From: an uncultured Pseudomonadota bacterium
GTDB taxonomy: Bacteria > Myxococcota_A > UBA796 > SXON01
DNA length: 63,870 nucleotides
Direction of reading: 5' to 3'
Assembly (NCBI GenBank): GCA_903844155.1
Contig: CAIMSU010000271.1
Location: 1 to 63,870, forward strand
The notes under the pieces were generated by a model, which searched no databases, was not told where the DNA came from, and was given only the letters and a program-made list of their open reading frames with translations. A program made the position numbers and the translations under genes. How positions within the stretch are numbered: the stretch's first letter is position 1; each line of letters starts with the position of its first letter. Positions 14,370 to 62,682 of the stretch are shown one piece after another.

Positions 14370-14749
14370 CAGGACTTCCCGTTGCTGGCTGCGAAGCGCA
14401 AGAGCGCCAGATGCCGGCTCATTCCGGTGCTGAGCGCGTTGTACATCAGGGAGTTCTCGGTGAGCTTGACGGCCTCAGCTTCCGGCGACACAGAGTTCCC
14501 GTCGAGGGCCCAAGCCACCGGGTCGACCTCGCGGATCTCCTCCTCCGGGGCCGCGGATTCGCCGTTCTCGGCGGCATCGACGGCGCGGCCGAGCAGGTCG
14601 GCGAACGGAACCTCACGCGCGTGGTAGCCGGGCGTGTCCGCATTCGCGAGGTTGGCCGCGGACAGGATGTGTTGCACCTGACGGAGATCCAGCGCCCGCT
14701 GGACGCCCGCGCCCACCGCGTCGAAGAGCCGAACTGGTGTGGTTGTCAT
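14369..14749 (-). CDS. flgB: Flagellar basal-body rod protein FlgB
   Basis: A 126-residue proximal rod protein and first gene of the flgB-flgC-fliE operon. The signature HILSAANLANADTPGYHAREVPFADLL is the conserved N-terminal axial motif, and NSLMYNALSTGMSRHLALLRFA is the C-terminal helix. A good Shine-Dalgarno (GGAGTG) lies ahead of ATG 14749. An exact sigma-28-type promoter lies 22 bp upstream, inside the end of the preceding TPR gene. Confidence 0.94.
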   Translation of the reverse strand: MTTTPVRLFDAVGAGVQRALDLRQVQHILSAANLANADTPGYHAREVPFADLLGRAVDAAENGESAAPEEEIREVDPVAWALDGNSVSPEAEAVKLTENSLMYNALSTGMSRHLALLRFAASNGKS

Positions 14750-23397: not shown

Positions 23398-23423
23398 AAC
23401 GGGCGAGACCGGAAAAAGTTCAG
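23398..23423 (-). promoter_or_regulatory. Sigma-28-type promoter of flgM-flgN-flgK-flgL
   Basis: CTGAA, 16 bp, CCGTTAG: one mismatch in each box relative to the island consensus, with exact spacing. Placement 10 nt before the flgM ATG equals that at flgI, fliL and flhA. FlgM would be under control of the sigma factor it inhibits. Confidence 0.6.
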
Positions 23424-28794: not shown

Positions 28795-28797
28795 TGC

Positions 28798-29454: not shown

Positions 29455-30232
29455 GGCGGTCCTCCGGGTCTTCAAGTACGCCGTCCAGATCAAAGCCGAC
29501 ATCGGCATCGACGTTGATCCCGACGGCCTTCCGGAGCTTGACGCGGGCACTCGAGAGAAGCTGGCTGATCCGGGAGGGCGTGACCTCCAGAATGGCACCG
29601 ATCTCGGCCATCGAACACTCGCGGGCGTAGTAGAGGAGCAGGGCCTGTCGCTCTTTCTGAGGCAACCCTAGGATCGCGGCTCGCAGGGCCTGGCGGGCCT
29701 CTTCCAAAAGCAGGCGCCTGGGGCCGCCCGCCTCGACGCCGAGACGGGGGTCTTCCTGGAACACGGAGGTCGACTCGCGGGTGGGTGGGGTGGTGGCGGC
29801 GCGCATTTGCCAGTAGCTCTCCATCGGTAGGCCGAGGTGGTTGGCCAGCTCTTCGTGGCCGGGGTTGTGGCCGAGCGCACGGCGGGTGTCCGCCGTCGCC
29901 CGGGCGAGGTCCTGCGACATCTGGTTCTGGCGACGCGTGACGCCGGTTGCCCGCCGCTCGGCATCCAGCATCTCCCCAAGGATCCGGTAGGAGGCGAAGC
30001 TCGAGAAGTCGACGTTCTGGGTCGGTTCGAAGCGGTCGAAGGCCTCCAAAAGGCCGAGGACGCCATAGGACACGAGGTCCTCGATGCTGAGATCGCAGCC
30101 CGGGCTCGTGCGATCGGAAAGGCGCCGAGCGAGCAGGAGGATGCGGCGCGAGAACCGCTCACAGGCCTGACTCCGGGTCATGCCCTCTACGATGCGATCG
30201 CCGTCAGAGCGATTGTAGCCACGCGGGATCAC
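29447..30232 (-). CDS. fliA: FliA-type motility sigma factor (first copy)
   Basis: About 261 residues with sigma-70 family regions 2, 3 and 4: DLVSYGVLGLLEAFDRFEPTQNVDFSSFASYRILGEMLDAERRATGVTRR (region 2 and melting segment), a short region 3, and LPQKERQALLLYYARECSMAEIGAILEVTPSRISQLLSSARVKLRKAV (region 4 HTH). No region 1.1, as in FliA. Start GTG 30232 or ATG 30181. An exact sigma-28-type promoter sits upstream, so it may activate its own transcription. It heads fliA-flgF-flgG-flgA-flgH-motA-motB. A second FliA-type factor is at 54835-55674. Confidence 0.88.
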   Translation of the reverse strand: MIPRGYNRSDGDRIVEGMTRSQACERFSRRILLLARRLSDRTSPGCDLSIEDLVSYGVLGLLEAFDRFEPTQNVDFSSFASYRILGEMLDAERRATGVTRRQNQMSQDLARATADTRRALGHNPGHEELANHLGLPMESYWQMRAATTPPTRESTSVFQEDPRLGVEAGGPRRLLLEEARQALRAAILGLPQKERQALLLYYARECSMAEIGAILEVTPSRISQLLSSARVKLRKAVGINVDADVGFDLDGVLEDPEDRHA

Positions 30233-36900: not shown

Positions 36901-39900
36901 ATGTTGCTCCTGGTCCTCTGCGCGCGCGCTGCGACGCTCTCCGTCGGGCCCGCCGAGACCTACGCCACCATCGGGGATGCGGTCGAGGCGGCCTCGGACG
37001 GCGACACGATCGAGGTCGCTCCTGGCACGTATGCGGAGGCGCTCGACCTCGGCGGCCTCAGCCTGAGCGTGCTGGCGACCGGCGGCTCGGCGGTCACAGT
37101 ACTGGCCCCGACGACGCCCGACGACGCCTTCGTGATGTCGGCGGGTGAGGACGCCGTGCTGGACGGGTTCACGATCCGGCCCAGCGGCGGGCGTGGCATC
37201 GTCGTGTCGGGCGGGAGCCTGGACGCGAGCGACCTCGTCATCGAGTCGGCGGGGTCGGCGAGCGTGGAGGGCGGCGCTCTCTCGGTGGACGGCGGCACCG
37301 TGGTGTTGAGCAGCGTCGAGATGAACGGGAGCATCGCCGCCCTTGGCGGGCACATCTACGTGAGTGGCGGAGCGGTACTCACGGGGACGGACCTCAGCTT
37401 CACCGACGGCACGGCGGTCGATGGTGGTGCGCTCTGGTTGGACTCCGGGTCCGTCGTCCAACTGTCGACCTTCGTGGTGACCAACCCGACGGCAACCGGC
37501 AACGGCGGCTTCGCGTGGCTCGACGGCGCCGAGCTGGACCTGTCGGGTGGCAGCATCACGGGTGCCGCGGCAGACGCCGCAACTGGCAGCGGTGGGGGCA
37601 TCTACGGCACCGATTCGCTGCTGACGTTGACCGACACGGACATGGTCTCGTGCACCGCGTTCACTGCGGCCGGGATCGACCTCTCCGGCGCGTCGGTGGC
37701 CAGCCTGGTCGGCGGAAGCCTGAGCGGGAACGAGAGCGTCTCCAACGGGGGTGCCGGCTGGATCCACGACGGGGCCCTGCTCGCCTGCTCGGAGTGCACG
37801 ATCTCCGACAATGGGGCCGGCGGTGACGGCGGTGGCTTCGTGGCCGAGGGCGGCGCCTGGCTCGATGACGTCGATGGGACCTGGGCCGACAACACCGCCA
37901 GCGGGGACGGCGGCGCCGTGTGGGGCGACGGCACGTCGTCCCTCTCCCTGTCCGGGACGACGGTCCGCGCGAACTCCGCCAACGGGGACGGCGGAGCCAT
38001 GGCTCTTTCCGGCAGCATGAACGGCAGCGGCGCTGCATTCGACAGCAACGCAGCGGTGTTCGGCGCGGGCGGCGCGATCTCGGCGACGGGCGAGCTCACC
38101 CTGCAGCACTCGGTGTTCACCGACAACGCCGCGCTGACGGACGGCGGCGCGGTCCTCCTGCGCGACGGGAGCGCGACCTTCGAGGACGTGGACGCGGCCG
38201 GGAACGACAGCGGCGGGGACGGGGGCGCGTTCGCCTTCTCCGGGGTCGGGACCCTTTCGCTCGTCGGCGGCACCCTCTTCGGCAACTCCGCCACCGAGGG
38301 CGGTGCGGTCTTCCTGAGCGCCCCGACGACCTCGGCCGGCCTGTCGAACCTCGTGGTCACCGACAACGTCGCGGTGGACGGGGCCGGCGTCTGGCTCGAC
38401 GGGGCGCTCCAGGTCTCGCTCGTGAACAACACCTTCGCAGGCAACGAGGCCTCGGGTGCAGGGGGGCATGTCTACACCGCGGCGCCGGTCAGCTTCGTCA
38501 ACAACCTGCTCCTCGACGCGGTGGCAGGCGGCGGCGCGTTCGGCAGCTCGGACTCGGGCTCGGACCGGTACTTCAACCTCGCCTGGAACAACACCGGCGG
38601 GGACTGGGCGGGTTGGTCCGATGTCGACGGCATCAACGGAAACCTCACGCAGGACCCTCTGGTCACTGCGTACACGGCCGACGGCGACGCCAGGGACGAC
38701 GACCTCCATCTCCTCGCCACGAGCCCCTGCGTGGACGCAGGCTCGCCGACGATGACGGATCCCGATGGCTCTCGTGCGGACATCGGGGCCTACGGTGGAG
38801 CGTCCGCGCGCACGTCGGACGGCGACGGCGACGGGTTCTACGACTCCATCGACTGCGATGACGCCGACCCGGCGATCCACCCCGGCGCCCCCGAGATCGC
38901 GTACGACGGCATCGATCAGGACTGTGACGGTCTCGATCTGGACGACGTCGACGGCGATGGGCACAGCGCGAGCACCGTCGGCGGGGACGACTGTGACGAC
39001 GCCGACCCGGCGATCTACCCGGGCGCGCCCGAGGTCTGGTACGACGGAGTTGACGAGGACTGCAGCGGGGGCTCGGACACGGACGCGGACGGCGATGGGC
39101 ACGATGCCCTCGTCGTCGGCGGGGACGACTGTGACGACACGGACGCAGGCGTCTACCCTGGGGCCGCAGACCCCTGGTATGACGGAGTGGACGGCGATTG
39201 CGCCGGCGACGACGACTTCGATCAGGATCTGGACGGCTTTGACGCCACAACGGGCGGTGGGGACTGCGACGACGTCGACTCGGCGATCCACCCTGGGAGC
39301 ATCGAGATCCCGTACGACGGCATCGACCAGGACTGCTCGGGTGGCGATCTCGTCGACGTGGATGGCGACGGCTGGGCTGCCCTCGCGGCGGGTGGCGCCG
39401 ACTGCAACGATGGGGACGCCCGGGTGTACCCCGGAGCCCCGGACGACCCGACGGACGGAATCGACAGCGACTGCGATGGCTACGACGAGTGGGACCGCGA
39501 CGGCGACAGCTACCAGAACGAGCTCGGTGATGGGACCGACTGTGACGACGACGACGCCACCGTGAACCCCGCGGCGATCGAGATCTGGTACGACGGCATC
39601 GACCAGGACTGCGACGGGCGCGACGACGACCAGGACGGCGATGGCTACCCGCTCGCCACGGACTGCGACGACACCGACCCCGCCGTGAACCCCGGCGCCG
39701 AGGAGCTGGCGAACGGCATCGACGACAATTGCGACGGCTGGGCCGAGACCGACGATCAGGACGGCGACGGGCTGACCGAGGCGGAGGAGCAGACCCTGGG
39801 CACCGATCCGACGAATCCGGACACGGACGGCGACTCCCTGTCCGACGGCGTGGAGCAGGACGCCGGACCCGACCGCGACGCGGACGGTGTGCTCGACGCG

Positions 39901-40221
39901 CTGGACACCGACGACGATGCGGACGGCCTGCCCACGTTGGACGAGCAGACCTTTGACATCGACGGCGACGGCATCCTCGACACCGACGTGGACGGCGACG
40001 GCCTCATCAACGCCTGGGACGACGACAGCGATGGTGACGGCCTGCTCGACAGCGCGGAGGGCGAGGAGGACCTGGACGGAGACGGCGTGCCCGACTTCCT
40101 CGGGTACTCCGGGCCGCTCGTCGGGAGCGGATGTGGAGGCGGCAAGTGGGCCGGCCTGATGGTGCTCGGCGGGCTCCTCCGCAGGGGCGGGGTGCGCGGA
40201 CCGGGGGGGCGTCGGCCATGA
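36901..40221 (+). CDS. Large secreted beta-helix/MopE-repeat protein with sorting-like tail
   Basis: A 1106-residue surface protein. After a short signal peptide ([10 protein letters not shown]) comes a right-handed beta-helix of about 580 residues ([31 protein letters not shown] is the classic start; many [12 protein letters not shown]-type turns follow). Seven MopE-type repeats follow ([15 protein letters not shown] then [10 protein letters not shown], ~38900-39760 in DNA). TSP3-like Asp-rich repeats come next, then a tail with [22 protein letters not shown], similar to MYXO-CTERM. Paired Asp/Cys residues suggest Ca2+ binding and disulfides. ATG 36901 begins 2 nt after the previous stop. 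It would form a long stiff surface structure. Confidence 0.8.
38818..39780 (+). repeat. Array of MopE-type DCDD repeats
   Basis: Seven units of 35-48 codons, each with DCDD/DCND, PGA(P) and YDGI(D)xDC motifs. Spacing and sequence vary, and the reading frame is kept throughout, so this is a protein repeat array and not a DNA-level satellite or CRISPR. Confidence 0.85.
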
Positions 40222-41684
40222 TCGCACTGCTCACCTTGCTCCCGATTGCGTTCGCGCTTGACGTGGACACGTTCACGACCGGCGCGACGACCGGCGACCC
40301 GACCGCCTTCACGCGACTCGGCTCGATGGTGACCGGGGACGCCGGAACCTGGGACGCCGGCCTGGTCCTGGACTACGCCGACGCGCCGCTGAGCGAGCAG
40401 ATCGCCGGCGGGCGCTCGCCGGTGATCGACGTGCTCGCCACGACCAACCTCACCGGCGGGTACAGCTTCGGCGGGGTCCGGCTCGACGGCACGCTGCCCC
40501 TGCACCTCGGCGTGGATGCGAGCGACTCGGGCAACAGCTCCTCCTGGCTGGCGAGCGGCGACGCACGCGTCGGGGCGCAGCTCGCTGTGCCCCACCTGAA
40601 CCGGTTCACGCTTGGGAGTACGCTCGTCCTGCCAACCGGTGCGGACGCATTGTACGTCGGGGGACCGGGCCGGCTGGTCACGGTGCTGCGCGGGGGCCGT
40701 GAGTTCGGCCGTGTCGGCGTCCTCGCGCTCGCCGGCGCCGTGCTCTCCCTCCCGGAGCAGGTGCGCGGGCTCGAGGCGGGGGTGGGTCCCGTGCTCGGCG
40801 TCGGCGCCGCCTACCGCATGAGCGACGCGTTGTCGGCGGCATTCGAGCTCGGCGCCGAGGGCTCCTGGGGCGTCGGCTCGATCCCACTGGAGTCCACGCT
40901 GTCCGCGCGGATGCGGCTCCCGGATGGGATCTGGGCCAGTGCTGGCGCGGCTGCGGGCCTTGGCGCAGGTGTCGGTGCCAGCCGCTGGCGCGTGATCGTC
41001 GGCGTCGGGTATTCGGGTGGCCGGCCCGGGGGGGTGACCCCCGCCGAGGCAGATGCCCGTTCCGACGGTGACGCCGACGCAGATGGCGACGGGATCCTCG
41101 ACGATCAGGATGCCTGCCCGGGAGAGGCCGAGACCATCGACGGCGTCGACGACGCGGACGGATGTCCGGACCCCGATGGGGACGGGGACGCGTTCACCGT
41201 GGACGCCTGCCCCAGCGAGCCCCTCGGGCCCGGTCAGGACCCGCGACATTCGGACGGGTGCCCGCAACGCGCCGAGCTCGCTGGGGATCACGTGGCGGTC
41301 ACGGGGACGATCTTTTTCCGTGAGGGCCGGGCCGAGCTGCTCGTCAGCGCGGAGCCCGTCCTGACGGCGGTGCGCGACGCCATGCAGGCGCACCCCGAGG
41401 TCGCCCTGTTCCTCATCGAAGGCCATGCGAACACCGACGGACCTGAGGCGTACAACCTTCGCTTGTCCGACGCGCGGGCGTTTTCGGTGATGGGCTGGCT
41501 CGTGAAACACGGAGTCGACTCGAACCGGCTGATCTCAAAGGGCTTCGGCGAATCCCAGCCCCTGCTCCCGGAGTCCAGCTCGGATGCGCTCGCCGCCAAC
41601 CGGAGGGTGGAATTCCGCGTCGTCCACATCGAGGACATCCCGCCGGACTCCCGCCACATCGACGTTCCAGCCGACGCCCGGTGA
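40218..41684 (+). CDS. OmpA-like outer-membrane protein with TSP3 repeats
   Basis: A 488-residue protein. ATG 40218 overlaps the previous stop (ATGA) and gives a signal peptide ([13 protein letters not shown]). Residues ~25-275 form a beta-barrel-like region ([42 protein letters not shown]). Asp-rich thrombospondin type 3 repeats follow ([32 protein letters not shown]). The C-terminal OmpA/MotB domain ([34 protein letters not shown] ... ANRRVEFRV) binds peptidoglycan. It could anchor the other two operon products to the wall. It ends just before the flhA promoter. Confidence 0.85.
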
Positions 41685-51157: not shown

Positions 51158-51832
51158 ATGAGTTCGACCGTGACCGGAGTCAACACCACCGCAGACATCC
51201 CCACGGCGACGTCCACGTCGGGTTCAACCTCCCTCGGCAAGGATTCGTTCCTGCTACTGTTGACGACGCAGCTCAAGAATCAGGACCCGAGTGCCCCGGT
51301 GTCGAACACCGAGTTCGTTTCCCAGCTGGCGCAGTTCTCGCAGCTCGAACAACTGCAGACAGTGTCCAGCCAGCTCGAGTCGTTGTACCTCGTGAATGTG
51401 TCGATGAACAACGCGTCGATGACCAGCCTGCTCGGCAAGCAGGTCGTCGCGCGGTCGGACACGTTCCACCATTCGAGCGGCTCCCAGGACATGCACTTCG
51501 ACGCCGCGAGCGCCACCACCAGCACCACGCTGACCATCACGAATTCCAGTGGGACGGTGGTCTACAGCGGAGAAATCGGGGCGGAGGCGGCCGGTGAGGG
51601 CACCTACACTTGGGACGGCAAGGATCAGAGCGGGCAACTCGTCGCGGACGGCGACTACACCTTCACGGTCAGCGGCTCCGACGTGAACGGCAACGACGTC
51701 AGCGTACAGACCTTGATCCAGGGCACCGTCGACGAAATGTCCTTCGCGACCGGGTCTGCGGCACCCTCGGTAAACGGGGTGGACATCGCCATGGGCGACA
51801 TCGTCCGCCTGGTGGAAGGGAGCGGCTCGTGA
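51158..51832 (+). CDS. flgD: Hook cap protein FlgD
   Basis: A 224-residue hook scaffolding protein. The conserved N-terminus LGKDSFLLLLTTQLKNQDPSAPVSNTEFVSQLAQFSQLEQL is diagnostic, followed by beta domains with GTYTWDGKDQSGQLVADGDYTFTVSG. It caps the growing hook and directs FlgE polymerisation. The stop overlaps the next gene (GTGA). Confidence 0.95.
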   Translation: MSSTVTGVNTTADIPTATSTSGSTSLGKDSFLLLLTTQLKNQDPSAPVSNTEFVSQLAQFSQLEQLQTVSSQLESLYLVNVSMNNASMTSLLGKQVVARSDTFHHSSGSQDMHFDAASATTSTTLTITNSSGTVVYSGEIGAEAAGEGTYTWDGKDQSGQLVADGDYTFTVSGSDVNGNDVSVQTLIQGTVDEMSFATGSAAPSVNGVDIAMGDIVRLVEGSGS

Positions 51833-52218
51833 ACCTGCGCTCCGTCGGCTCGGTCGGACCGACCCCGGCGTCGGGAACGGCGACCCTGCCGGAGTCCGCA
51901 CCCGGCTTCGGCTCCAACCTCGACGCGCTGCTTCGGCCAACTTCGGGGGCCTCGTCGCCCACGGGCGTCCAATTCTCGCGCCACGCGTCCGCGCGCATGG
52001 AGTCCCGGGGCGTGGCGCTCGACTCTGCCGACCTGTCGGACCTGTCGGACACCATCGATCGCCTCGCCAAGCGCGGAGCCAAGGAGAGTCTCGTCCTGAT
52101 GGGCGAGCACGCGTTCATCGTCGGGGTGCCCGACCGCAAGGTCGTCACCGTGCTGACGCGGCAGGAGGCCGCAGGCAACATCTTCACGCACATTGATTCA
52201 ACCGCTGTGATTCGCTGA
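51829..52218 (+). CDS. Flagellar operon protein, TIGR02530-like
   Basis: A 129-residue protein of the small flagellar operon family found between flgD and flgE (FlbD-neighbour/TIGR02530 type). The core is VQFSRHASARMESRGVALDSADLSDLSDTIDRLAKRGAKESLVLMGEHAFIVGVPDRKVVTVLTRQEAAGNIFTHIDSTAVI, which matches the family pattern (FSxHAxxRlxxRgi ... tvit). GTG 51829 overlaps the flgD stop. Its role is unknown; its position suggests hook assembly. Confidence 0.85.
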   Translation: MNLRSVGSVGPTPASGTATLPESAPGFGSNLDALLRPTSGASSPTGVQFSRHASARMESRGVALDSADLSDLSDTIDRLAKRGAKESLVLMGEHAFIVGVPDRKVVTVLTRQEAAGNIFTHIDSTAVIR

Positions 52219-52284
52219 TTCTCGATCGCTGATTCTCGATTTTCAACAACGGGCCGGACCGCGGAATTCCCCAAGGAGGCCCAA

Positions 52285-52333
52285 GACAACTCCCGATCGA
52301 CTGACGGAGTTGTCCCTCACGCGCCGTTGGCGC
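52285..52333 (+). promoter_or_regulatory. Two hairpins ahead of flgE
   Basis: A 9-bp perfect stem (GACAACTCC at 52285-52293 with GGAGTTGTC at 52306-52314) is followed by a tight stem (GCGCC, GTT, GGCGC at 52321-52333). The second ends 2-4 nt before the flgE Shine-Dalgarno (AAGGAG). A 14-bp direct repeat (52213-52226 and 52227-52240) lies just before. No U-tract is present, so an RNA-level control of hook translation or an mRNA end is more likely than a strong terminator. No sigma-28-type motif was found here. Confidence 0.4.
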
Positions 52334-52350
52334 TTCCAAGGAGTGTTCCC

Positions 52351-53691
52351 ATGTCCCTGTTCAGTACCCTCGGTGTCGGAGCCAGCGGGCTCAACGTGGC
52401 CAGCGTCGGGCTCGGCGTGGCCGGTGACAACATCGCAAACATCGGCACCACCGGGTACAAGCACACCCGGGCGACGTTCGCGGACTTCCTGCCGCAGAAC
52501 GTCTTCGGGCTGAGCGGCGTCGGCCAGCTCGGCACGGGTGCGGCCACGAACTACCTCTCCACCCAATTCGCTCAGGGCAGCATCAACAGCAGCGACTCGT
52601 CGCTGGACATGGCGATCGGCGGGAACGGCTTCTTCGTCGTGAACGACGGGAACCAAAGCTCCTACACGCGAAATGGGGAGTTCTACATGGACGACAACGG
52701 GTTCATCACCACCGCCTCCGGGCTCAACCTGCAGGGCTACAATGCCGTCAACGGCGCGGTGTCCGGAGCCATCGGGGATCTCCAGATCGATGAGACGACG
52801 ATCCCTCCGGCCGTCACCACGACGGTGGTGGCGGACGCCACGCTCTCCGCGGAGACGGTACCGGGCGTCGACCTCGCCGCCATCGACATGTACGGCACCG
52901 GCACCGGCACGAACACGCTGACCGAGGCTGGAGACGCCGCTGACTTCACGATGGGGACGACCATCTACGACACGCTGGGGGTCGCTCACGACGTCACTGT
53001 GCTGTTCGAGCGGTCTGGCACGTCGGACTGGATCTGGCGCGCAGTCACCGACGCGACTCAGGTGTACGACACGACCAACACCGCGTTCTCCACCACCGCC
53101 GATTCGGGATTCGAGATCGCGAACGGCACCGTCAGCTTCGACACCGACGGGAACATCTCGGCCTTCACCCAGACCAACACGTCGACCACCACGCCGTGGA
53201 CCTTTCAGGGGGCCGCGGCACAGGACGTCGCGTTCGACTTCGGGATGGACTCCACGGGCGTGGCCACGGACGGCGCCGTCACCATGGTCGGCGACGAGTC
53301 CTCGGTCCAGGCGCTCTCCCAGGACGGCCGGTCCGCCGGCATCCTGTCGAGCCTCGCAGTGTCCGACGATGGCACGATCACGGGGTCCTACACGAACGGC
53401 GAGGATCTGGTCGTCGGGCAGGTCGCGCTCGCCACCTTCACCGCGGAGTCTGGGCTCATCCGGGCGGGGGGCACGTTGTTCACGGCGTCATCCGCCGCCG
53501 GCGCGCCGGCGGTCGGCGCTGCGGGCACGGGCACGCGGGGGACCATCTCCGGAAGCGCGCTCGAAGGGAGCAACGCCAATCTCGAAGACGAGTTCGTCAA
53601 CATGATCACCGCCCAGCGCATGTACCAGGCCAACGCCAAGGTGATCACGGCCGCCGACGAGTCCCTGCAGACCCTGATGGCGATCCAGTAG
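52351..53691 (+). CDS. flgE: Flagellar hook protein FlgE
   Basis: A 446-residue hook protein. N-terminal LFSTLGVGASGLNVASVGLGVAGDNIANIGTTGYKHTRATF, the DLGQ-type core (MAIGGNGFFVVNDGNQSSYTRNGEFYMDDNGFI) and the C-terminal GSNANLEDEFVNMITAQRMYQANAKVITAADESLQTLMAIQ are the hook signatures. The variable domain is Thr/Ser-rich. ATG 52351 has AAGGAG 8 nt upstream. It ends 3 nt before the convergent regulator gene. Confidence 0.96.
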   Translation: MSLFSTLGVGASGLNVASVGLGVAGDNIANIGTTGYKHTRATFADFLPQNVFGLSGVGQLGTGAATNYLSTQFAQGSINSSDSSLDMAIGGNGFFVVNDGNQSSYTRNGEFYMDDNGFITTASGLNLQGYNAVNGAVSGAIGDLQIDETTIPPAVTTTVVADATLSAETVPGVDLAAIDMYGTGTGTNTLTEAGDAADFTMGTTIYDTLGVAHDVTVLFERSGTSDWIWRAVTDATQVYDTTNTAFSTTADSGFEIANGTVSFDTDGNISAFTQTNTSTTTPWTFQGAAAQDVAFDFGMDSTGVATDGAVTMVGDESSVQALSQDGRSAGILSSLAVSDDGTITGSYTNGEDLVVGQVALATFTAESGLIRAGGTLFTASSAAGAPAVGAAGTGTRGTISGSALEGSNANLEDEFVNMITAQRMYQANAKVITAADESLQTLMAIQ

Positions 53692-53694
53692 CGG

Positions 53695-54468
53695 TCAGCC
53701 GAGAGCCTGGGAGGGGGGAGCCCCGGCCCAGGCTCGGTAGGTGCGGGAAAAGTAGGCGGGGGCCATGCCGACCGCAGCGGCGACCTCGGCTACGCTGCCG
53801 AACGCGCCGACCTCAAGCATCTCGTGGGCGGCCTTCAGCCTGACCTCCCGGATGTACGCTTTCGGCCCAAGTGGCCCGAGCTCGAGGAGGCGGCGGCGGA
53901 GCTGCCGGGGGCTCACGGCGAGGTCCCGTGCGAGGTCGTCGACTGTGTACAAGGCGTCCCCAAGCGACCGGTGGATGGCCTCGTCGATGCGACGACGGAG
54001 GGCACGGAGCTGCGCCGGGCTCGTCGTCGAACCGCTGGAGGGCAACGGGCTCGTCGGGGGGGCCCCAAGGGCGATTCCTGCGCTACGGGCGATGAGCTTC
54101 TTCAACCGGACGATGAGCTCGGCCTCGTGGAAAGGCTTGCCCATGAACTCATCGACCGTCCAGAGCGCGGAGGCCTGGACTTCGCCGGTGCCGTTCGCGC
54201 TCAGGAGCATGACCGGCAAGTGGGCAAGGCGCCGGTTGCTCCGGATCCGGTCGCAGAGCGCGAGGCCGTCGATGTCCGGCATGATCAGATCGGACAGGAC
54301 GGCCACCGGCTGGAGATCTTCCAGCACCTTGAGCGCCTCGGCTCCGCCGGATGCGGTGGTGACGGTCCAGTGTGGCGACAAGAGGTCGACCAGCACGGCA
54401 CGCATCCAGGCATCATCCTCGACGACGAGGAGGGAAGGGCGGAGTTCGTCCGTGGGAATCGGGTCCAT
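53695..54468 (-). CDS. Response regulator with AraC-type DNA-binding domain
   Basis: A 257-residue regulator. Receiver domain: acidic pair in LLVVEDDAWMRAVL, phospho-acceptor Asp in VLSDLIMPDIDGLAL, Ser in MLLSANG and Lys in MGKPF. A Ser/Pro linker follows, then an AraC-family double HTH (TVDDLARDLAVSPRQLRRRLLELGPLGPKAYIREVRLKAAHEMLEVG, then EVAAAVGMAPAYFSRTYRAWAG). It is probably switched by an unlinked kinase. Start ATG 54468 preferred over 54492. It is convergent with flgE and divergent from the second sigma gene, so it may act on the shared upstream region. Confidence 0.85.
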   Translation of the reverse strand: MDPIPTDELRPSLLVVEDDAWMRAVLVDLLSPHWTVTTASGGAEALKVLEDLQPVAVLSDLIMPDIDGLALCDRIRSNRRLAHLPVMLLSANGTGEVQASALWTVDEFMGKPFHEAELIVRLKKLIARSAGIALGAPPTSPLPSSGSTTSPAQLRALRRRIDEAIHRSLGDALYTVDDLARDLAVSPRQLRRRLLELGPLGPKAYIREVRLKAAHEMLEVGAFGSVAEVAAAVGMAPAYFSRTYRAWAGAPPSQALG

Positions 54469-54549
54469 GGTGCTGACTATCTCGCCGCCCAACGCACGTC
54501 ACCAACCGGCGAAGGCTGTCGGTAACCGTACAGATTGTCAATAGTCGTG

Positions 54550-54575
54550 CTCACGTTTTCGCCACCCCGACCGAG
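54550..54575 (+). promoter_or_regulatory. Near-consensus sigma-28-type promoter of second sigma gene
   Basis: CTCAC, 16 bp, CCGAGAG: one mismatch in each box, spacing exact. The spacer resembles that of the flgD promoter. It is 259 bp upstream of the second sigma gene, so the leader would be long. Confidence 0.45.
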
Positions 54576-54604
54576 AGCGGACCCCTTCCGGACGTGTTCA
54601 AACC

Positions 54605-54628
54605 GGACATAGGCTTGCACTTATGTCC
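54605..54628. promoter_or_regulatory. Perfect dyad, possible operator
   Basis: GGACATA and TATGTCC around a 10-bp spacer, 30 bp after the sigma-28-type motif. This is the size expected of a dimeric repressor or activator site. The neighbouring AraC-type regulator is one candidate to bind here, but AraC proteins usually use direct repeats. Confidence 0.35.
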
Positions 54629-54834
54629 CCGAGGGTGCTGTTGGGGTGAACCGTCTGGTAGTCTTCAACCGTCCCTGCGAGAAGCACCCAATCCACAACC
54701 GCAAGAATCGATAAAAGCATTGCTCATCGCTCGGTTATCGCGCGGTGACCTTCCCTGCCACTGTTCCGCCGCCCGCCGAAGCTCGCCGACACAGGCGCAA
54801 CCCTTTTCAGACGATTGCCCCCCGAGGAGGCCGC

Positions 54835-55674
54835 ATGAGCCATCATCTCGCGAACTGCCCGCCGACCCCGCAGCGGAAGCTTGAGCTTCAGGCACGCGCA
54901 AGCGCGCGCGGCGTCGATCTCGACAACCGGGACTGGGCCGAGCCCCGGGCACCCCGTTCGCGCTCCCGCCCGAGTCGTCGCGACCGGGAGGCCATGATTG
55001 TGGCTCACGTGCAGTTGGTGCGCGTGATCGCTTCGCGCATCTCGCGCCGGCTGCCCTCGCATGTCGACACCGACGAGCTGACCGGCGTCGGGATGCTTGG
55101 CCTGATCGACGCTGTCGACCGGTTCGACCCCGAGCGAGGAACCCCGTTCAAGGCCTACGCGGAGATCCGCGTCCGCGGCGCCATCATCGACTCTTTGCGA
55201 TCGGCTGACTGGGTCCCGCTCGTCGTTCGCCGCAAGGTGGCGCGCATCGAGCGCACTCGCGACGCGCTTCGACGGCGCACCGGGCGCGACCCGAACCGTG
55301 TGGACATGGCGGAAGCCCTCGGCATGTCACCAGGCGCCTACGACGACCTGCTCGGAGACGCGGTGGTCCACCACCTCGTCTCCCTGGAGGCCGTGGACGG
55401 CCAACCGAATGGGAGCTCCCCGGCGGACCGCATTGCCAGCTCTTCCGACCACGCCCTCGATGTCTGGCTTGCAGAAGAGGGCCAGCAGGCGATCGAGCGG
55501 GCCGTCCACCACCTACCCGAGATGGAGCGCAAGGTGCTGCATCTCTACTACGGCGACGGCCTGAAGTACCGCGAGATCGGGCTGTCGCTGGGGGTGTGTG
55601 AGTCCCGGGTGTGCCAGCTCCGGGGTCAGGCCATCGCCCGGCTGCGGAAGGTCGTCTCGGCCACGATCGATTGA
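54835..55674 (+). CDS. FliA-type motility sigma factor (second copy)
   Basis: A 279-residue sigma factor with FliA-like regions: VDTDELTGVGMLGLIDAVDRFDPERGTPFKAYAEIRVRGAIIDSLRSADWVPLVVRRK (region 2 to 3, closest to classic FliA), a region 3 with TGRDPNRVDMAEALGMSPGAYDDLL, and region 4 LPEMERKVLHLYYGDGLKYREIGLSLGVCESRVCQLRGQAIARLRKVV. ATG 54835 has AGGAGG at the right spacing; longer starts are unsupported. It differs clearly from the first copy at 29447-30232. Which one reads the CTCAA-N16-CCGAT motif is open. The GRAM-PilZ gene follows. Confidence 0.9.
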   Translation: MSHHLANCPPTPQRKLELQARASARGVDLDNRDWAEPRAPRSRSRPSRRDREAMIVAHVQLVRVIASRISRRLPSHVDTDELTGVGMLGLIDAVDRFDPERGTPFKAYAEIRVRGAIIDSLRSADWVPLVVRRKVARIERTRDALRRRTGRDPNRVDMAEALGMSPGAYDDLLGDAVVHHLVSLEAVDGQPNGSSPADRIASSSDHALDVWLAEEGQQAIERAVHHLPEMERKVLHLYYGDGLKYREIGLSLGVCESRVCQLRGQAIARLRKVVSATID

Positions 55675-55687
55675 CGCGGAGGTGGAT

Positions 55688-55726
55688 ATGATATCTTTGA
55701 GTGCCCTTCGTCTCCACTCCATGTGA
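55688..55726 (+). CDS. Possible 12-codon leader ORF before GRAM-PilZ gene
   Basis: GGAGG at 55678-55682 sits 5 nt before ATG 55688, the best Shine-Dalgarno spacing here, yet this frame encodes only MISLSALRLHSM and then stops within the GRAM-PilZ gene. The annotated GTG of that gene (55701) lies 18 nt from the same GGAGG, too far. It may be a leader peptide that couples translation, or a sign of a frameshift at the start of the PilZ gene. Confidence 0.35.
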   Translation: MISLSALRLHSM

Positions 55727-57194
55727 GCTGTCGTTGAGTCCCACACGTCCCAACCTTGGTGATGGCTCGCCTGCGGACCCGGTCCTGCTTCAGGGATCGG
55801 CCACCGTCGAGGTCAACGACCTGCTCGCGGCTGTCGGGGAGCTCACGATCACGACCCAGCGCATCCGTTTCAGGCCGAACCGGGTCGAGAATCTGGTCGG
55901 GTTGGCTGCGGCCTTCGACGATCCGGTCGATGCGATCAGCGGTTTCGAGATCACCGGCGCACGGCACCGCCTCGAGGTTCGCTCGGCCAGCCGCACGGTC
56001 CGATTCATGGGGGATGTCGTCCCCGGCGTGTACGGTGCGCTTCAGGCCCTCGCGGAGGTGGCGTCCGGAGAGGTCAAGGCGGAGCATCTCGGGTTCCGGC
56101 TGGTTCCGGCGTCACTGTGTCGCGGCCCGGTGATGCATCCTGGTGCGCTGGTGTTCACAGGCACCCGGCTCGCGTTCGTCGCGACCGGTTTTCTCGACTC
56201 CCTCGTCGGCGTGCACGCGCTCACCGAGATCCCGGTAGGGGCGATCACCAACCTCACCTTGTCCGGAAGGCTCGACCCGCGCATCGAGGTCGGCACGGTC
56301 GGAGCGCGGTTGATCTTCGCCTGTGCAGACGCGGCCAACCAGTACGAGCGGGCGGTGGCTTGGCTGGCCGAGCACCTCCCGGGTCCGATGGTGCTCGGCG
56401 GAGCAGCGGCGACGGGCCCCGTGGCGACGGAACTCGACCGGGTGATCGGCCCATACCGGGGCCTTGGAGCCCTCGCCGAGGCCCCGCTCATGTTCACCCC
56501 GGCCGTCGCACTGAGCGCCAACAGCCCCGCCACACCTGGCTGGCTGTTCGTCGGCGCGGAGTCCATGGTCTGGCTCCCTGGGCCTACACCAAGCGTAGCA
56601 AGGCCGCCGGTGTCCCTGCCTCTGGGCCGTGAACGCTGGATCTGGGGTGAGCCAGCGGCCGAGATCCGGGCCGACCGCGAAGGGATCCCGTATCGATGGG
56701 TGACCCGGCTCGGGGTCCCGTTCCGGCAAGCGCTCTTCGAGCAGGTCGAGCGGATCCGGAAGCGGATCGCGCTGGCATGGGCGTCGTCCGGCACGGGGGT
56801 GATCGCGGACGGGCAGAACCGCCGGGACAGCTACCGCGTGCAGGTGATGGAGCAGGGGCAGCCTGCGATCGGCATCTGGGTCGCCACGGAAGGGGAGTTC
56901 CGGCAGCTGAGCTGCAAGATCATCGAGCTCTCACTCGGCGGCTGTTCCATCCGGACCGCGGCGCAGCTCCCGCTCGATCTGCTCGCCCGCGTCGATCTCG
57001 CGGAGAGCGGCCGCGTCTGCTCCGTCCGCGCTCGTGTGGCCTACACCCGGCAGGGCATGCATGACCAACGCTCGGTGGCTGGGCTCGTGTTCATCGAGCC
57101 GCCGTCCGACTTTGACACCGTCCTCCGGCACATGTGGATGTCGCTCCAGCAGCAGCAGCTGAAACGGCTGCGTGGTGGTGGCGAGCCAACGTGA
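55701..57194 (+). CDS. GRAM/PH-like repeat plus PilZ protein
   Basis: A 497-residue protein. Two to three GRAM/PH-like modules (GELTITTQRIRFRPNRVENL ... HRLEVRSASRTVRFMGDV; GALVFTGTRLAFVATGFLDSLVG) precede a C-terminal PilZ domain (~residues 370-480) with RRDSYR (RxxxR) and ELSLGG, where the usual Asp/Asn of (D/N)xSxxG is Glu. PilZ domains bind c-di-GMP and often act on flagellar motors (YcgR type). GTG 55701 or a later start; a leader-like ORF with a better Shine-Dalgarno overlaps. It lies 26 nt after the second sigma gene. An intact paralogue of the broken gene at 8320-10078. Confidence 0.82.
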   Translation: MPFVSTPCELSLSPTRPNLGDGSPADPVLLQGSATVEVNDLLAAVGELTITTQRIRFRPNRVENLVGLAAAFDDPVDAISGFEITGARHRLEVRSASRTVRFMGDVVPGVYGALQALAEVASGEVKAEHLGFRLVPASLCRGPVMHPGALVFTGTRLAFVATGFLDSLVGVHALTEIPVGAITNLTLSGRLDPRIEVGTVGARLIFACADAANQYERAVAWLAEHLPGPMVLGGAAATGPVATELDRVIGPYRGLGALAEAPLMFTPAVALSANSPATPGWLFVGAESMVWLPGPTPSVARPPVSLPLGRERWIWGEPAAEIRADREGIPYRWVTRLGVPFRQALFEQVERIRKRIALAWASSGTGVIADGQNRRDSYRVQVMEQGQPAIGIWVATEGEFRQLSCKIIELSLGGCSIRTAAQLPLDLLARVDLAESGRVCSVRARVAYTRQGMHDQRSVAGLVFIEPPSDFDTVLRHMWMSLQQQQLKRLRGGGEPT

Positions 57195-57212: not shown

Positions 57213-58229
57213 TCACGCCCGGAGGCGCTTGAGCAGCGATCTCGCGCCGGCGTGGCTCTGGTCGATCCCGACCGCCCGCGAGGCCAGACTCCGGGCGTTC
57301 TCCTTCAGCCCGAGGGCCTCATAGACCTCGGCGAGCACCATCGCGTACTCGAGGTTTTTCGGCTCCTTGGCGCAGGCCTTCCGGTACAGCTGCACCGCGC
57401 CGCGAAGATCCTCGCCCTGCGCGCGCAAGAGCTGCGCGAGGCGGAAGAACGCGACGCCGTCCGGGGGGTCCAGATCGATCGCCTTTCTGTAGCGGGTGAC
57501 GGCCTCTGCCTTCTGGGCGTAGCTCTCGGCGCGCCCTGCCTCTGCCACGAGCACCTTCGCCCGGGCTTGGCGGCTGCGCATCAGGGCCCCGCGGTGAAGG
57601 GCGGCGTAGTCGGGGTTGGCGGGCTCGAAGCGGGACGCGAGGTACAGGTTCGTCTCGGCGAGGGCGTAGCGCCCGGCCTCGAGGTCCGCCTTTCCGGCGG
57701 AAAAGTAGCGTTCGGCGCGTTGGCGGTGGTCGTCGAGCTGGCGACGGATGGCTTCGACGGCCTGACCCTGCTCCGGAGCGCCGGGGGGACTGCTTCCGGG
57801 GCGGCGGAAGGATGTCTCGGACGACGATCCGCGCGCCGGCTCCGAAGCGAGCGACGGCTGGGATGCCGTGGAGACGGCTGAGGCCGCGCTGCGATCACTC
57901 GACGCCGTGCGATGCGGGTTCCAGCCGGGGACGGAGCTCGCGGGCGCGAGCGACGTGGACGCCGACCGCGGCGATCGGCGTGCCTCCTGGAACCAGCGCG
58001 TCACCAACGCGAAATTCTCGTCGAGCACCCGTCCGAGCGCGCCGACGTCGCGGCTGTAGAAGCGGTCGGGGTGCCACTGATGCACGAACTCGCGGTACGC
58101 CCGGTCGAACCCCAGCGCGTCCGACGCGTCCACGAAACCCAGCGCAACACCTGTCGCTCCCTGGCCGAGCGCGTCCTGAATGCGCGTGATCTCGTTGATC
58201 TCGGTCTGGCTAAGCGGCCGTCGTTCCAT
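57213..58229 (-). CDS. J-domain-like protein with TPR repeats
   Basis: A 338-residue cytoplasmic protein (no signal peptide). The N-terminal ~95 residues form a J-like domain with the HPD motif (YREFVHQWHPDRFYSRD), which stimulates DnaK-type ATPases. A Ser-rich linker is followed by TPR repeats (AERYFSAGKADLEAGRYALAETNLYLASRFEPANPDYAALHRGALM ... AVTRYRKAIDLDPPDGVAFFRLAQLLRAQGEDLRGAVQLYRKA). ATG 58229 chosen; TTG 58271 is also possible. A sigma-28-type promoter lies upstream, so it may be a motility-linked chaperone. It is convergent with the GRAM-PilZ gene. Confidence 0.75.
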   Translation of the reverse strand: MERRPLSQTEINEITRIQDALGQGATGVALGFVDASDALGFDRAYREFVHQWHPDRFYSRDVGALGRVLDENFALVTRWFQEARRSPRSASTSLAPASSVPGWNPHRTASSDRSAASAVSTASQPSLASEPARGSSSETSFRRPGSSPPGAPEQGQAVEAIRRQLDDHRQRAERYFSAGKADLEAGRYALAETNLYLASRFEPANPDYAALHRGALMRSRQARAKVLVAEAGRAESYAQKAEAVTRYRKAIDLDPPDGVAFFRLAQLLRAQGEDLRGAVQLYRKACAKEPKNLEYAMVLAEVYEALGLKENARSLASRAVGIDQSHAGARSLLKRLRA

Positions 58230-58290
58230 CCGATCTCTCGCGGGCGCTCCCGACCGCCTGTACGGCGGCAACCTGCCCTTGCCGAGTGGT

Positions 58291-58373: not shown

Positions 58374-58721
58374 CTACGCCAGTCGGTTCAGAAGCGACCC
58401 GACCGCGGCGTCCTCCGCGCGGATCACCGCGGCGTTCGCGGCGTACATGAACGTCGAAACCCGGGTGCCGATCATGGCGTCCTCAAGGTTGACGTTCGAC
58501 AACTCGGTCGTTCCCCCTGTACTCGGGTCGAATGACTGCAAGCCCGGGCTGTCATCGGTTCGGACGGAAGCCGTCACGCCCCCGTTGGCCACATCGCGCC
58601 CCGAGACCACCCGGGCCTTGTACCCGTCGGACAGCAAGTTCGCGGTGTTGGACGCGTAAGCGGCCAGACTCGTGTCCGCGAATCGCATCCCGGATGCGGC
58701 AATGGCGAGGGCGGGGTTCAT
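58374..58721 (-). CDS. Minimal flagellar rod-type protein
   Basis: A 115-residue protein with the axial-protein architecture reduced to its two ends. The N-terminal PALAIAASGMRFADTSLAAYASNTANLLSDGYKARVV resembles FlgB/FlgC/FlgG N-termini. The C-terminal STGGTTELSNVNLEDAMIGTRVSTFMYAANAAVIRAEDAAVGSLLN matches the rod C-terminal helix. Only ~25 residues lie between, far fewer than in FlgB, FlgC, FlgF or FlgG, all present elsewhere in the window. It stands alone beside a MopE lipoprotein gene. It may be an extra rod or spacer subunit, or a decoy for the export system. Confidence 0.7.
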   Translation of the reverse strand: MNPALAIAASGMRFADTSLAAYASNTANLLSDGYKARVVSGRDVANGGVTASVRTDDSPGLQSFDPSTGGTTELSNVNLEDAMIGTRVSTFMYAANAAVIRAEDAAVGSLLNRLA

Positions 58722-58770
58722 GCCGGGATTGTATCACAAGGCCAGTTTGAATTCGTTCCGGAGACCCACG

Positions 58771-61700
58771 CTATCCCCCCGCGAAGAAGTACACCGTCCC
58801 TGCGTCCGGGCGCCCCGAGTAGTCGCCTTTCGAGCAGCCCATCATCATGTCGGCCGCGCCGTCCGCGTTCAGATCCCCGATGCCGACCGAGCTGCCGCAG
58901 GCGTCGCTGCTGCCGTCCCCGGTGAACGTCGCGTCGTAGCCGTCGGCGCTGGCGAGGTCGTACACACCGCTCAGCGGACCGTAGATGAGCCATGCCGCAC
59001 CTGCGCTGCTGGCCGAGCCGTTGTCCCAGTTGGGCGCTCCGACGAAGATGTCCAGCTCGCCGTCGCCGTTGACGTCGCCGAGGGCGGGCTGCGCGGAGCC
59101 AAGGTTGTCGCTGTTGTTCGCCCCGATGATCTTGACCGCGTAGTCCGAGGTCGCGCTGTCCGGGGTGCCGGCCTCAGGGTTGATCCCCTCGAAGAGGTAG
59201 ACCGCGCCCGCATTGTAGCTGCCGTCATCGTCGCGCGGGGCGGTCACGACCATGTCCGGCTGGCCGTCCCCGTTCACGTCGCCCGGCGCCCCGACCGCCC
59301 AGCCGAAGTACTCGCTGGACGTCGTCCCCGGGATCTTCAGGGCGGCGTCGGCGAGGCTGAACGTGGCGGTGATCGGGGCCTCGACCACGTAGACAGCACC
59401 GGCTCCGGACGCGCCGCTGTCCTGCCCGTAGGCGCCGATGAAGAGGTCATCGTAGCCGTCCCCGTTCGGGTCGTTGCCTTCCCCGCCAGCGAGGCCGTGG
59501 CCCGCCTGATCGAGGCTGGCCTCCTGGTTGATGACGTAGAGGCTCGTCAGCCCGCCCGCGCCGTGACTGTACAGGGAGACTGCGCCGGTCGCGGGGTTCG
59601 CGATGGCGATCTCGTTGTCGCCATACGTCGACCCTTCGTCCCCGATACCCGAGACAGGACCGTTCGCCGCGACCCGGTCATAGTACACGGAGGAGGACGA
59701 ATAGTCGCTCGTGGCGGCCAGACTCGTCCCTTCGTAGAGGTAGACATACGTCGTGGTGCTGTCGGAGCGAGCGACGGCCAGCTCATCGACACCGTCACTA
59801 TCGAAGTCCTGGACGCCCCAGAGCGCCGCACCCCACGTGTAGGACGCGCTTGTCGAGCCGTAGAGCAGGCCCGTGGCGTCGGTCGCCGCGCTCGCGCTGG
59901 CCGTCGGGAAGCCGTCGTAGACGTACACGACGCCCTCATACAAGCCCGCGTAGGTCTCCCCGCTGGCCCCCACAGCGAGATCGTCCGCGCCGTCGCCGTT
60001 GAAGTCCATCCCCGTGGCCAGCACGCTGCCAAAGGCGTCACTGCCCGCGGTCCCATAGTAGACGGCGTCAGCGTCGGTGCTCGCCCCGTCCTCCGCGAGG
60101 TAGGTGCCATGGTACGCGTACGTCGGGCACCCGTCGTCGGCGACGCCGTCGCAGTCGTTGTCCGCTCCGTCACCGCAGATCTCCAACGCAGCCGGATTGA
60201 CGGCCGAGGCCGCATCGTCGCAGTCCGTGCTGGCGCTGCTGGTGTACACAGTGTCGGCGGAGCACGTGCATTGGCCGGCGCCCGCCCCGTAGCCGTCGAG
60301 ATCGAGATCGATGTAGAAGTCCGTGCAGGCGAGCGCGTCGATGTCATTGGCCGAGCCGTCGCAATCATCGTCGTCGGGGGTCAGGCAGGTCTCGGCCACC
60401 CCGGGGTTCACCGTGGTCACGGCGTCGTCGCAGTCCGTCCCAGAGGTGCCGCCGGTGGGGGTCTCGTCGCCGTAGTCGTCAAGATCGTCGTCCTGCATGC
60501 ACGCGGTCGCCGAGTCGAGCGGCGCGGCGCCCGGGTAGGCCTCGGCGTCGGAGTCGTCACAATCGGAGGCATCGGACACAACCCCGACCGCGGCGTCGCA
60601 GCGCTTGGAGGCGGAAGCGGCCGCGCCGAAGCCATCGCCATCGCTGTCGGCGTAGAAGGAGGACTTGCTGCTGGACGCTACGTCCGGGTCCGCATCGTCG
60701 GCAAGGCCGTCGCAGTCCTCGTCCACATCGGCGGCGTCGCAAACCTCGGTCGCGCCGGGGTTGATGGAGGCGTTGGTGTCGTCACAGTCGGTATCGGCGG
60801 GGGCGAAGACCCGGTAGTCGCCTTCCGGTGCGCAGTAGCACGCGCTGTCGGTCGCAAGGCCGTAATCGTCGAGGTCCGCGTCCGCAAAATACGCCACGCA
60901 GCCTGTTGCGCCGCGCGCGTTGAGGGAACCGTCACAGTCGTCGTCGTAGGCCGTCGCGCAGTCCTCGGTCCCGGCGGGGCTCACCAGCGGGTCGGTGTCG
61001 TCGCAGTCCGTGCCGGCATCGACGGGTGCGGAGACGGCGCTGTCTCCGTAGCCGTCGCCGTCGGCATCGCGCGTGCAGAGAGTCGGGTCCTCGCTCAGCG
61101 CGGAGCCCGGAAACGTGTCGGCGTCCGAGTCGTCGCAGTCGTTGCTCGATTCGACGTACCCAGGGACCGGGTCGCAGAGCGGCAACGCGGCCCCCGCGCC
61201 GTACCCGTCGGCGTCACCATCGAAGTAGAAGTCGACCTTGCCCGCGGCCGCCACGCCGGGGTCGTGATCGTCCGCGGTGCCGTTGCAATCATCGTCCACG
61301 TCGAACGCATCGCAGACCTCGGCTTCGCCCGGGTTGACAGCGCCGTTGGAGTCGTCGCAGTCGTCGCCGGTCGCAGCGTACCCGGCGGGCGCGACACATG
61401 CGCTGGCCGTGGGGCTCGGCCCGCCGTACCCGTCCCGATCGCCGTCGATGTAGAACGTCGATTGGCCAATCGCGCTCGGGTCGGCGTCGTCGGCCAGCCC
61501 GTCGCAGTCCTCGTCCGTGGAGGCGCTGTCACACACTTCCTGGGCACCGGGGTTCCGTCCTGCGTCGGTGTCGTCGCAGTCCGTGCCATCGAGGACGTAG
61601 CCTGCCGGTGCCTCACACTGGGCCGCGGCCCGGGCACCCTCGCCGTAGCCGTCGGCATCGAGATCGCCGTAGTACGTGAGGAACGAGGCGGGGTCCGTGG

Positions 61701-62682
61701 ACGGGTCGGAGTCGTCCGAGAGCCCGTCGCAGTCCTCGTCGAGGTCCTCGGGGTCGCAGACCTCCAGCATGCCTGGGTTCACGCGCGGGTCGTAGTCATC
61801 GCAGTCGCCCAGCAGGGTGGTGTACGCGGCTGTCGGTGGGTCACACTGCAGGACCGTCAGCCCTGTCCCGTCGCTGTAGCCGTCCAGATCGACGTCGCGG
61901 TACCAGGTCGACAACGTGGTCGGGTCCACGCTGTCGTCGTCATCGTCGGCAAGTCCATCACAGTCCTCGTCCACGTTGAGGTCGTCGCAGACCTCGGCCA
62001 AGAGCGGGCTTCGGCCGCTGTCCGAGTCGTCGCAATCCGTGCAGGCGGGAGCGCCATCGCCATCCGCATCCGCGTAGCCGACAGACCCGTCGCAGTTGTA
62101 GTCGACCGGGTCGGTGCAGTCGGATTCGTCGGCACCGGGGTGCACGGCACCGTTCGTGTCGTCACAGTCGGTCGAGGACGCGACGTACCCGGGCGGGGCC
62201 TCACACGCGTCCACAGAGACACCGGGGTCGCCGTACCCGTCGCCGTCACCATCTTCGTAGTACGGGGTGGCTTCCGCGGCGTTGTCATCGACGTCCCCGT
62301 TGCAGTCGTTGTCGACACCGTCGCAGACCTCGGGGTTGCCGGGGAACGCCGTCGGGTCTGCATCGTCACAGTCGTCGCCGAGCTCCACGTAGCCGGGGGT
62401 GCCTGCACACAGGTCTGCAGGGGCTGCTGGATTCCCGTGGTTATCGGCGTCCACATCGGCGTAATAGCGAGAGGCATCCGAGGCGCCGACATCGACCGTC
62501 CCATCACAGTCATTGTCGATGCCGTCACAAACCTCCTCGGCCTCCGGGTTCACGTCGGCCCGCGCGTCGTCGCAGTCGACCTGATCCGAGTACCCGTCGC
62601 CATCATTGTCGATGCGCTGCTTCGTCACGCGGATGTCCTGCGGACATCCGAGCAGGAGCGCGAGGGGCAGGTATGGAAGCAT
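58771..62682 (-). CDS. Giant MopE-repeat/FG-GAP lipoprotein
   Basis: A 1303-residue exported lipoprotein (signal MLPYLPLALLLGC with the lipobox Cys13). About 860 residues hold 13 MopE-type repeats (DCDDTNGAVHPGAD, EVCDGxDNDCDG), rich in Asp and paired Cys, likely Ca2+-binding. The C-terminal ~450 residues are FG-GAP/VCBS-like repeats (DFNGDGADDLAVGASGE, GVQDFDSDGVDELAVARSD, DVNGDGQPDMVVTAPRDDD) that form a beta-propeller of the integrin-alpha type. There is no MYXO-CTERM tail. A TATA-rich stretch just upstream of ATG 62682 may be a housekeeping promoter. Probably an adhesin or matrix component; ligand unknown. Confidence 0.85.
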   Translation of the reverse strand: MLPYLPLALLLGCPQDIRVTKQRIDNDGDGYSDQVDCDDARADVNPEAEEVCDGIDNDCDGTVDVGASDASRYYADVDADNHGNPAAPADLCAGTPGYVELGDDCDDADPTAFPGNPEVCDGVDNDCNGDVDDNAAEATPYYEDGDGDGYGDPGVSVDACEAPPGYVASSTDCDDTNGAVHPGADESDCTDPVDYNCDGSVGYADADGDGAPACTDCDDSDSGRSPLLAEVCDDLNVDEDCDGLADDDDDSVDPTTLSTWYRDVDLDGYSDGTGLTVLQCDPPTAAYTTLLGDCDDYDPRVNPGMLEVCDPEDLDEDCDGLSDDSDPSTDPASFLTYYGDLDADGYGEGARAAAQCEAPAGYVLDGTDCDDTDAGRNPGAQEVCDSASTDEDCDGLADDADPSAIGQSTFYIDGDRDGYGGPSPTASACVAPAGYAATGDDCDDSNGAVNPGEAEVCDAFDVDDDCNGTADDHDPGVAAAGKVDFYFDGDADGYGAGAALPLCDPVPGYVESSNDCDDSDADTFPGSALSEDPTLCTRDADGDGYGDSAVSAPVDAGTDCDDTDPLVSPAGTEDCATAYDDDCDGSLNARGATGCVAYFADADLDDYGLATDSACYCAPEGDYRVFAPADTDCDDTNASINPGATEVCDAADVDEDCDGLADDADPDVASSSKSSFYADSDGDGFGAAASASKRCDAAVGVVSDASDCDDSDAEAYPGAAPLDSATACMQDDDLDDYGDETPTGGTSGTDCDDAVTTVNPGVAETCLTPDDDDCDGSANDIDALACTDFYIDLDLDGYGAGAGQCTCSADTVYTSSASTDCDDAASAVNPAALEICGDGADNDCDGVADDGCPTYAYHGTYLAEDGASTDADAVYYGTAGSDAFGSVLATGMDFNGDGADDLAVGASGETYAGLYEGVVYVYDGFPTASASAATDATGLLYGSTSASYTWGAALWGVQDFDSDGVDELAVARSDSTTTYVYLYEGTSLAATSDYSSSSVYYDRVAANGPVSGIGDEGSTYGDNEIAIANPATGAVSLYSHGAGGLTSLYVINQEASLDQAGHGLAGGEGNDPNGDGYDDLFIGAYGQDSGASGAGAVYVVEAPITATFSLADAALKIPGTTSSEYFGWAVGAPGDVNGDGQPDMVVTAPRDDDGSYNAGAVYLFEGINPEAGTPDSATSDYAVKIIGANNSDNLGSAQPALGDVNGDGELDIFVGAPNWDNGSASSAGAAWLIYGPLSGVYDLASADGYDATFTGDGSSDACGSSVGIGDLNADGAADMMMGCSKGDYSGRPDAGTVYFFAGG

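Follow-up and report, generated by a model that had tools for sequence, protein, structure and literature searches.

The short protein P0001 belongs by type to the flagellar axial (rod/hook) proteins, and we put at about one half the probability that it serves the flagellum as an accessory axial subunit of low copy number, made of the polymerisation core only. The window, i.e., the whole stretch of DNA analyzed here, is an entire contig of 63,870 bases from an assembly of 8.1 Mb, and all Flg_bb_rod matches over the cut-off in this 8.1-Mb genome fall inside it. Its relevant features are as follows.

58374 to 58721, minus strand: short axial ("mini-rod") protein P0001, recognized by its ORF, family models, AlphaFold2, a FlgC-like fold and homologues
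58728 to 58733, minus strand: TACAAT, a putative -10 box that lies 6 nt ahead of the ATG
57213 to 58271, minus strand: TPR protein whose N-terminus is J-domain-like; its gene separates the PilZ and mini-rod genes here, not in sister genome G004
58771 to 62682, minus strand: large MopE/FG-GAP repeat lipoprotein gene, its end 49 nt upstream of the mini-rod start
51158 to 57194, plus strand: FlgD, FlgE, a sigma-70-type factor (FliA-like) and a PilZ protein
28027 to 29598, minus strand: FlgG and FlgF, the ordinary distal rod set
13654 to 14749, minus strand: FliE, FlgC and FlgB, the ordinary proximal rod set

The mini-rod ORF starts with ATG, is intact and encodes 115 residues on the minus strand, exactly as in a preliminary description of this DNA, which had called the product rod-type; the family models agreed with that call, if weakly. 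Flg_bbr_C matched residues 70 to 111 of P0001 with an E value of 4.7e-4 and 20 bits, under its curated cut-off of 23, and the FlgG, FlgEFG, FlgE, FlgF and FlgC models gave E values from 1e-5 to 5e-3, far under their cut-offs (17.2 bits for the FlgC model TIGR01395, whose curated cut-off is 102.1). TIGR01396 and the FlgB models left P0001 unmatched at E up to 10, and the D1 domain PF22692, which does match the window's own FlgG, FlgF and FlgE, had no match in it. Since P0001 scores under both the Pfam and the NCBIfam cut-offs, the gene is easily missed by annotation. Among 23 family members, Flg_bb_rod was found in 20 and Flg_bbr_C in 16 at E up to 0.1, while at E up to 0.01 all 23 matched TIGR03506 and 14 weakly matched TIGR01396 (FlgB); the N-x-x-N type and Y-x-A-N type motif checks were each passed by 22/23.

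AlphaFold2, run with six sequences, gave a model of P0001 with a pLDDT of 89.1 and a pTM of 0.75, one of the five models being poor (37.7). The predicted structure consists of a helix (residues 3 to 27), four strands (37 to 43, 49 to 55, 62 to 65 and 70 to 73) and a second helix (79 to 114). The best 10 Foldseek hits span the whole model with TM scores of 0.79 to 0.87 (query length) and belong to four proximal-rod entries, from Salmonella or from a polar motor. FlgC is the named molecule of 7bin_V, of one chain of 7cg0 and of 8z5s_g, and from their chain lengths the remaining top chains are presumably FlgC as well. With VIA-align, P0001 was superposed on 7bin_W (Z 13.8, 2.1 Å, 115 residues), FlgC 8z5s_g (Z 13.3, 2.0 Å, 115 residues), FlgG 8z5u_A (Z 13.5, 1.5 Å, 114 residues) and the hook chain 6k9q_Q (Z 12.9, 1.3 Å, 110 residues). 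The flagellar rows all lie within about 1 Z of one another and the non-flagellar chains start at 6.4; helical pairs may score high by arrangement alone, the flagellar rows standing well above the others, and the absence of a family from the VIA-align list is not taken as evidence. The model thus suggests an axial D0-type fold that is FlgC-like over the whole length of P0001, a fold that by itself is no proof of assembly.

To place the short proteins among the axial families, a tree was built from 96 columns of the two ends and 84 rows, including the 23 family members, 8 short proteins from outside, and FlgC, FlgB, FlgG and FlgF rows limited to 12, 6, 10 and 9, respectively, plus those of the window (G530 was left out). 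Thirty short proteins fell on a single branch (98/96), apart from FlgC (99/100), FlgB, FlgE, FlgF and FlgG, and one of those from outside (G337) grouped with FlgK; an earlier tree with 16 of the 23 likewise gave separate branches. The branch of short proteins joins FlgK (99/95) and then FlgE (91/82). In AU tests, from which G337 was omitted, placement with FlgC (p 0.27) or with FlgE (p 0.10) was not rejected on these few columns and long branches, while placement with FlgG (0.031) or FlgF (0.029) was disfavoured. An origin of the short proteins from a short FlgC is neither shown nor excluded by the tree and the AU test. These data raise the alternative that P0001 is a subunit of another axial junction (rod-hook or hook-filament), kin to FlgE and FlgK and not to FlgC. 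Besides the tree order, the VIA-align rmsd values, which are smaller for FlgE (1.3 Å over 110 residues) and FlgG than for FlgC (2.0 to 2.1 Å over 113 to 115), and the C-terminal SNVNLE...YAAN, closer to FlgE than to FlgC, speak for this alternative; against it, the AU test does not reject the short proteins with FlgC, and the branches are long and the columns few, and we consider it unlikely. Because the tree puts P0001 nearer to FlgE and FlgK than to FlgC and the AU test rejects neither FlgC nor FlgE, it is by its fold that P0001 is assigned a position in the rod.

FliE, FlgC, FlgB, FlgG, FlgF, FlgK, FlgE and FlgD are all encoded in the window, so the short protein is an addition to the standard set, as had been proposed from the presence of FlgB, FlgC, FlgF and FlgG. 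FlgH, FlgI, FliP, FlhB, FliF, FliD, flagellin, MotB and a rod-binding protein are encoded there too. Several other genes of this flagellar region were noted. The rod-binding (FlgJ-like) protein (23420 to 24124, minus strand) carries a C-terminal Peptidase M23 domain; FlgJ of enterics has a glucosaminidase at its C-terminus. Between FlhB and FlhA, within the flagellar gene run, are genes for a MopE/beta-helix repeat protein of 1106 aa and for one with an OmpA domain (36901 to 41684, plus strand), and the gene next to FliE codes for a fusion of a protein kinase with an HDOD domain (11277 to 13559, minus strand). The vicinity of the short gene likewise has kinase or HDOD genes in G018, G056 and G169.

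Homologues were then sought in related genomes, a check that the preliminary description had proposed. Among 58 relatives, short homologues with 43 to 63% identity were present in five (G004, G009, G018, G056 and G007), and G002 had a diverged one; some match at E up to 0.01 was found in 12 of the 58, the ones other than short homologues being FlgE- or FlgG-like pieces or weak, unassigned matches. A profile of the 23 aligned members, which are 99 to 118 aa long, yielded 43 full-length matches, which are spread over 42 of the 282 genomes sampled from the phylum, probably Myxococcota. These are the 43 rows down to E 1.5e-17, counted by eye on the basis of full model span, and the first true FlgC appears at 7.5e-16, i.e., poorer than all 43; the 42 do not count G002, which is diverged, G215 (E 5e-9) or the split G272:C482. 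Two homologues (L031 and L033) lie in MAG records that bear the names Bifidobacterium breve and Klebsiella pneumoniae, titles that are at odds with their likeness to the window's genome and look mislabelled. Outside the phylum, one Sumerlaeota genome has the short protein. A further set was entered via a Salinarimonas record with a FlgC hit, whose phylum we take to be Pseudomonadota; a match at E up to 1e-12 was obtained in 32 of its 249 scanned genomes, giving 33 rows, of which 8 were taken as short proteins by their span (276 to 303 nt), the other 25 having FlgC-like spans (of these, the C9 row of G292 was read). No match to the mini-rod protein was found in the plasmid collection searched. 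As judged from sequence comparison, the mini-rod proteins appear to form a scattered, conserved family in at least three phyla.

Two outcomes named beforehand as fatal to the proposal, a lack of conservation beyond this genome and decay from a longer gene, were both looked for and neither was found. The length class and both helices are retained across phyla, and dN was below dS in 15/15 pairs of six order-level genes, with dS at 0.7 to 2.2 (near saturation) and dN/dS at about 0.25 to 0.82. The homologues, the length and dN < dS rule out a chance ORF. Decay does occur in the family: a diverged copy is present in the same genus (G002, L029:11901-12311), and a second copy in another genome is split over two frames (G272:C482:4335-4687), which suggests that the mini-rod gene is sometimes lost. 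That P0001 itself is what decay has left of a longer rod or hook gene is nonetheless hardly credible, given the uniform length class, the two helices kept across phyla and dN < dS.

The family is nearly restricted to flagellate genomes. FlgC was over the cut-off in 110 of the 282 genomes and in 38 of the 42 with a short gene (Fisher p 8e-14, the relatives being non-independent); G185 and G280 have a partial FlgC and a full FlgI, so that flagellar genes are present in 40/42. All nine Pseudomonadota and Sumerlaeota genomes with the short gene have FlgC over the cut-off. Conversely, 72 of the 110 FlgC-bearing genomes are without a full-length short gene, and since only 38/110 of the sampled flagellates, roughly one in three, carry it, the gene is dispensable and its product accessory. 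The two exceptions, G172 and G138, in which no FlgC, FlgI or other axial match was found, could point to a takeover of the protein for a non-flagellar job, as could the location of most copies far from flagellar genes. However, these two assemblies are incomplete (93 and 89%), and four other genomes of the genus of G138 (G195, G207, G226 and G234) have FlgC; we regard such a takeover as very improbable.

The surroundings of the gene vary. In the window it stands apart from the other rod genes and beside the large lipoprotein gene, as the preliminary description had it; the latter encodes a MopE/FG-GAP repeat protein of 1303 aa with the N-terminus MLPYLPLALLLGC, which is lipobox-like by the consensus. 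A conserved partnership with this gene was ruled out, the neighbour in G004 being PilZ; an FG-GAP protein gene adjoins the short gene in G007 (43 nt) and lies about 7 kb off in G056. In G004 the mini-rod gene comes after the PilZ gene in the FlgD-FlgE-FliA-PilZ run and shares its strand, whereas in the window the TPR gene intervenes and the strand of the mini-rod gene is reversed. This TPR protein has an HPD-bearing N-terminus, its Pfam J-domain match being no better than E 0.17. FliD and flagellin genes are close to the short gene in G062, G289 and G253 (a single genus, g41), with FliS and FliT in between as read in G253; MotA and MotB lie about 2 kb from it in G261, and FlgE lies 13 kb from it on the same contig in G081. 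In total, a flagellar gene was in the fetched stretch at 5 of 43 places besides the window, some of these stretches being merely 3 to 8 kb long. In family f23, four genomes (L079, L082, L083 and L084) have OmpA-domain genes in the vicinity of the short gene, and a penicillin-binding transpeptidase gene adjoins it in G113; these OmpA-domain and transpeptidase surroundings make up a conserved non-flagellar neighbourhood.

Upstream of the gene, a TAnnnT box ending 5 to 6 nt before the ATG was found in 7/7 order-level genes (the window and L024 to L029). By comparison, the same DNA has such a box at 32 of its 3077 ATGs and at 9 of 127 called genes, and 4 of those 9 are short genes of the mini-rod family. 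No Shine-Dalgarno-like string was present in the last 18 nt before 6/7 of the order-level genes, the window gene among them, and for this reason the window transcript is probably leaderless; it would start from a housekeeping-type promoter, the box being a consensus match rather than a mapped start. No FliA or sigma-54 promoter was seen upstream on inspection by eye.

This promoter bears on the main rival, namely, that the protein regulates flagellar assembly negatively. As a truncated axial mimic, it would sit at the export gate or the rod tip and cap or delay growth, and it would be expressed from its own housekeeping-type promoter. The -10 box near the start in 7/7 order-level genes agrees with it, as do the patchy, dispensable distribution and two neighbours with c-di-GMP themes, the adjoining PilZ gene in G004 and a GGDEF gene one small ORF from the mini-rod gene in G253. 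Moreover, P0001 has neither the FlgC cap motif nor D1, so a layer built of it could end growth. On the other hand, the conserved C-terminal helix and the beta region seem needless for a simple plug, the PilZ/GGDEF neighbourhood was seen in two lineages only, and we know of no regulator of the truncated-axial-mimic type. We hold this rival to be rather doubtful.

As an accessory axial subunit, P0001 would comprise the D0 helices together with a small Dc-like beta region, would pass through the flagellar secretion gate on export, and would pack into the axial tube by its two terminal helices. Its most likely site would be the single-layered proximal rod, next to FlgC, where it may add to or vary a junction while no standard subunit is replaced, presumably in few copies. 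The fold, the conservation and the near-restriction to flagellates bear out the earlier proposal of an extra rod-type subunit; its extension to a sheathed or wall-anchored flagellum did not stand, as the window has ordinary genes for the FlgI P-ring and the FlgH L-ring and the lipoprotein neighbour is not conserved. More tentatively, and with the odds against it, the short proteins may constitute a further axial family beside FliE, FlgB, FlgC, FlgF, FlgG, FlgE and FlgK, encoded by an orphan gene in scattered flagellates of at least three phyla and forming an optional rod segment or a stop signal that adjusts at which site a flagellum is finished, or if it is finished at all. Standard accounts give the rod five fixed proteins; a short axial protein that is conserved yet dispensable, and mostly encoded outside the flagellar clusters, would mean an optional part in the rod or in its assembly.

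Compared with known systems, the mini-rod protein appears to be a part of a known kind that, as a separate conserved family, is undescribed in the literature searched. In the portions of the open PMC literature that the search returned, we found no description of a short extra rod protein save a bare mention of SO4782 of Shewanella oneidensis, called a "protein with c-terminal DUF1078 domain" with no function given in the excerpt (PMC4476702), where DUF1078 corresponds to PF06429, according to the part seen of PMC2955703; SO4782, with a predicted 8.9 kDa and the same Pfam C-terminal domain, is likened to P0001 by description. In Actinobacteria, FlgB and FlgC are reported to have no domains other than D0 and Dc, FlgC carrying a cap region in addition (PMC10746217). 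FlgB (TIGR01396) shares with P0001 the size class and helical ends and stands on a separate tree branch. FlgG, FlgF and FlgE (TIGR03506) have terminal helices as in P0001 and VIA-align Z values within 1 of FlgC, but in the window they are 255 to 454 aa long and carry D1 (PF22692), which the 115-aa P0001 does not. The earlier statement that P0001 keeps almost none of the middle therefore holds against FlgG and FlgE; it fails against FlgC, which is itself almost without a middle, P0001 being 26 residues shorter than the 141-aa FlgC of the window and keeping four short strands between its helices. The FlgC cap motif Y-D-P-x-H-P-x-A...G-x-V is present in 27/31 FlgC proteins and in 0/23 of the short ones, yet FlgC (TIGR01395) is like P0001 in having a terminal helix on either side of a small beta region, in its fold over the whole length and in its similar size.
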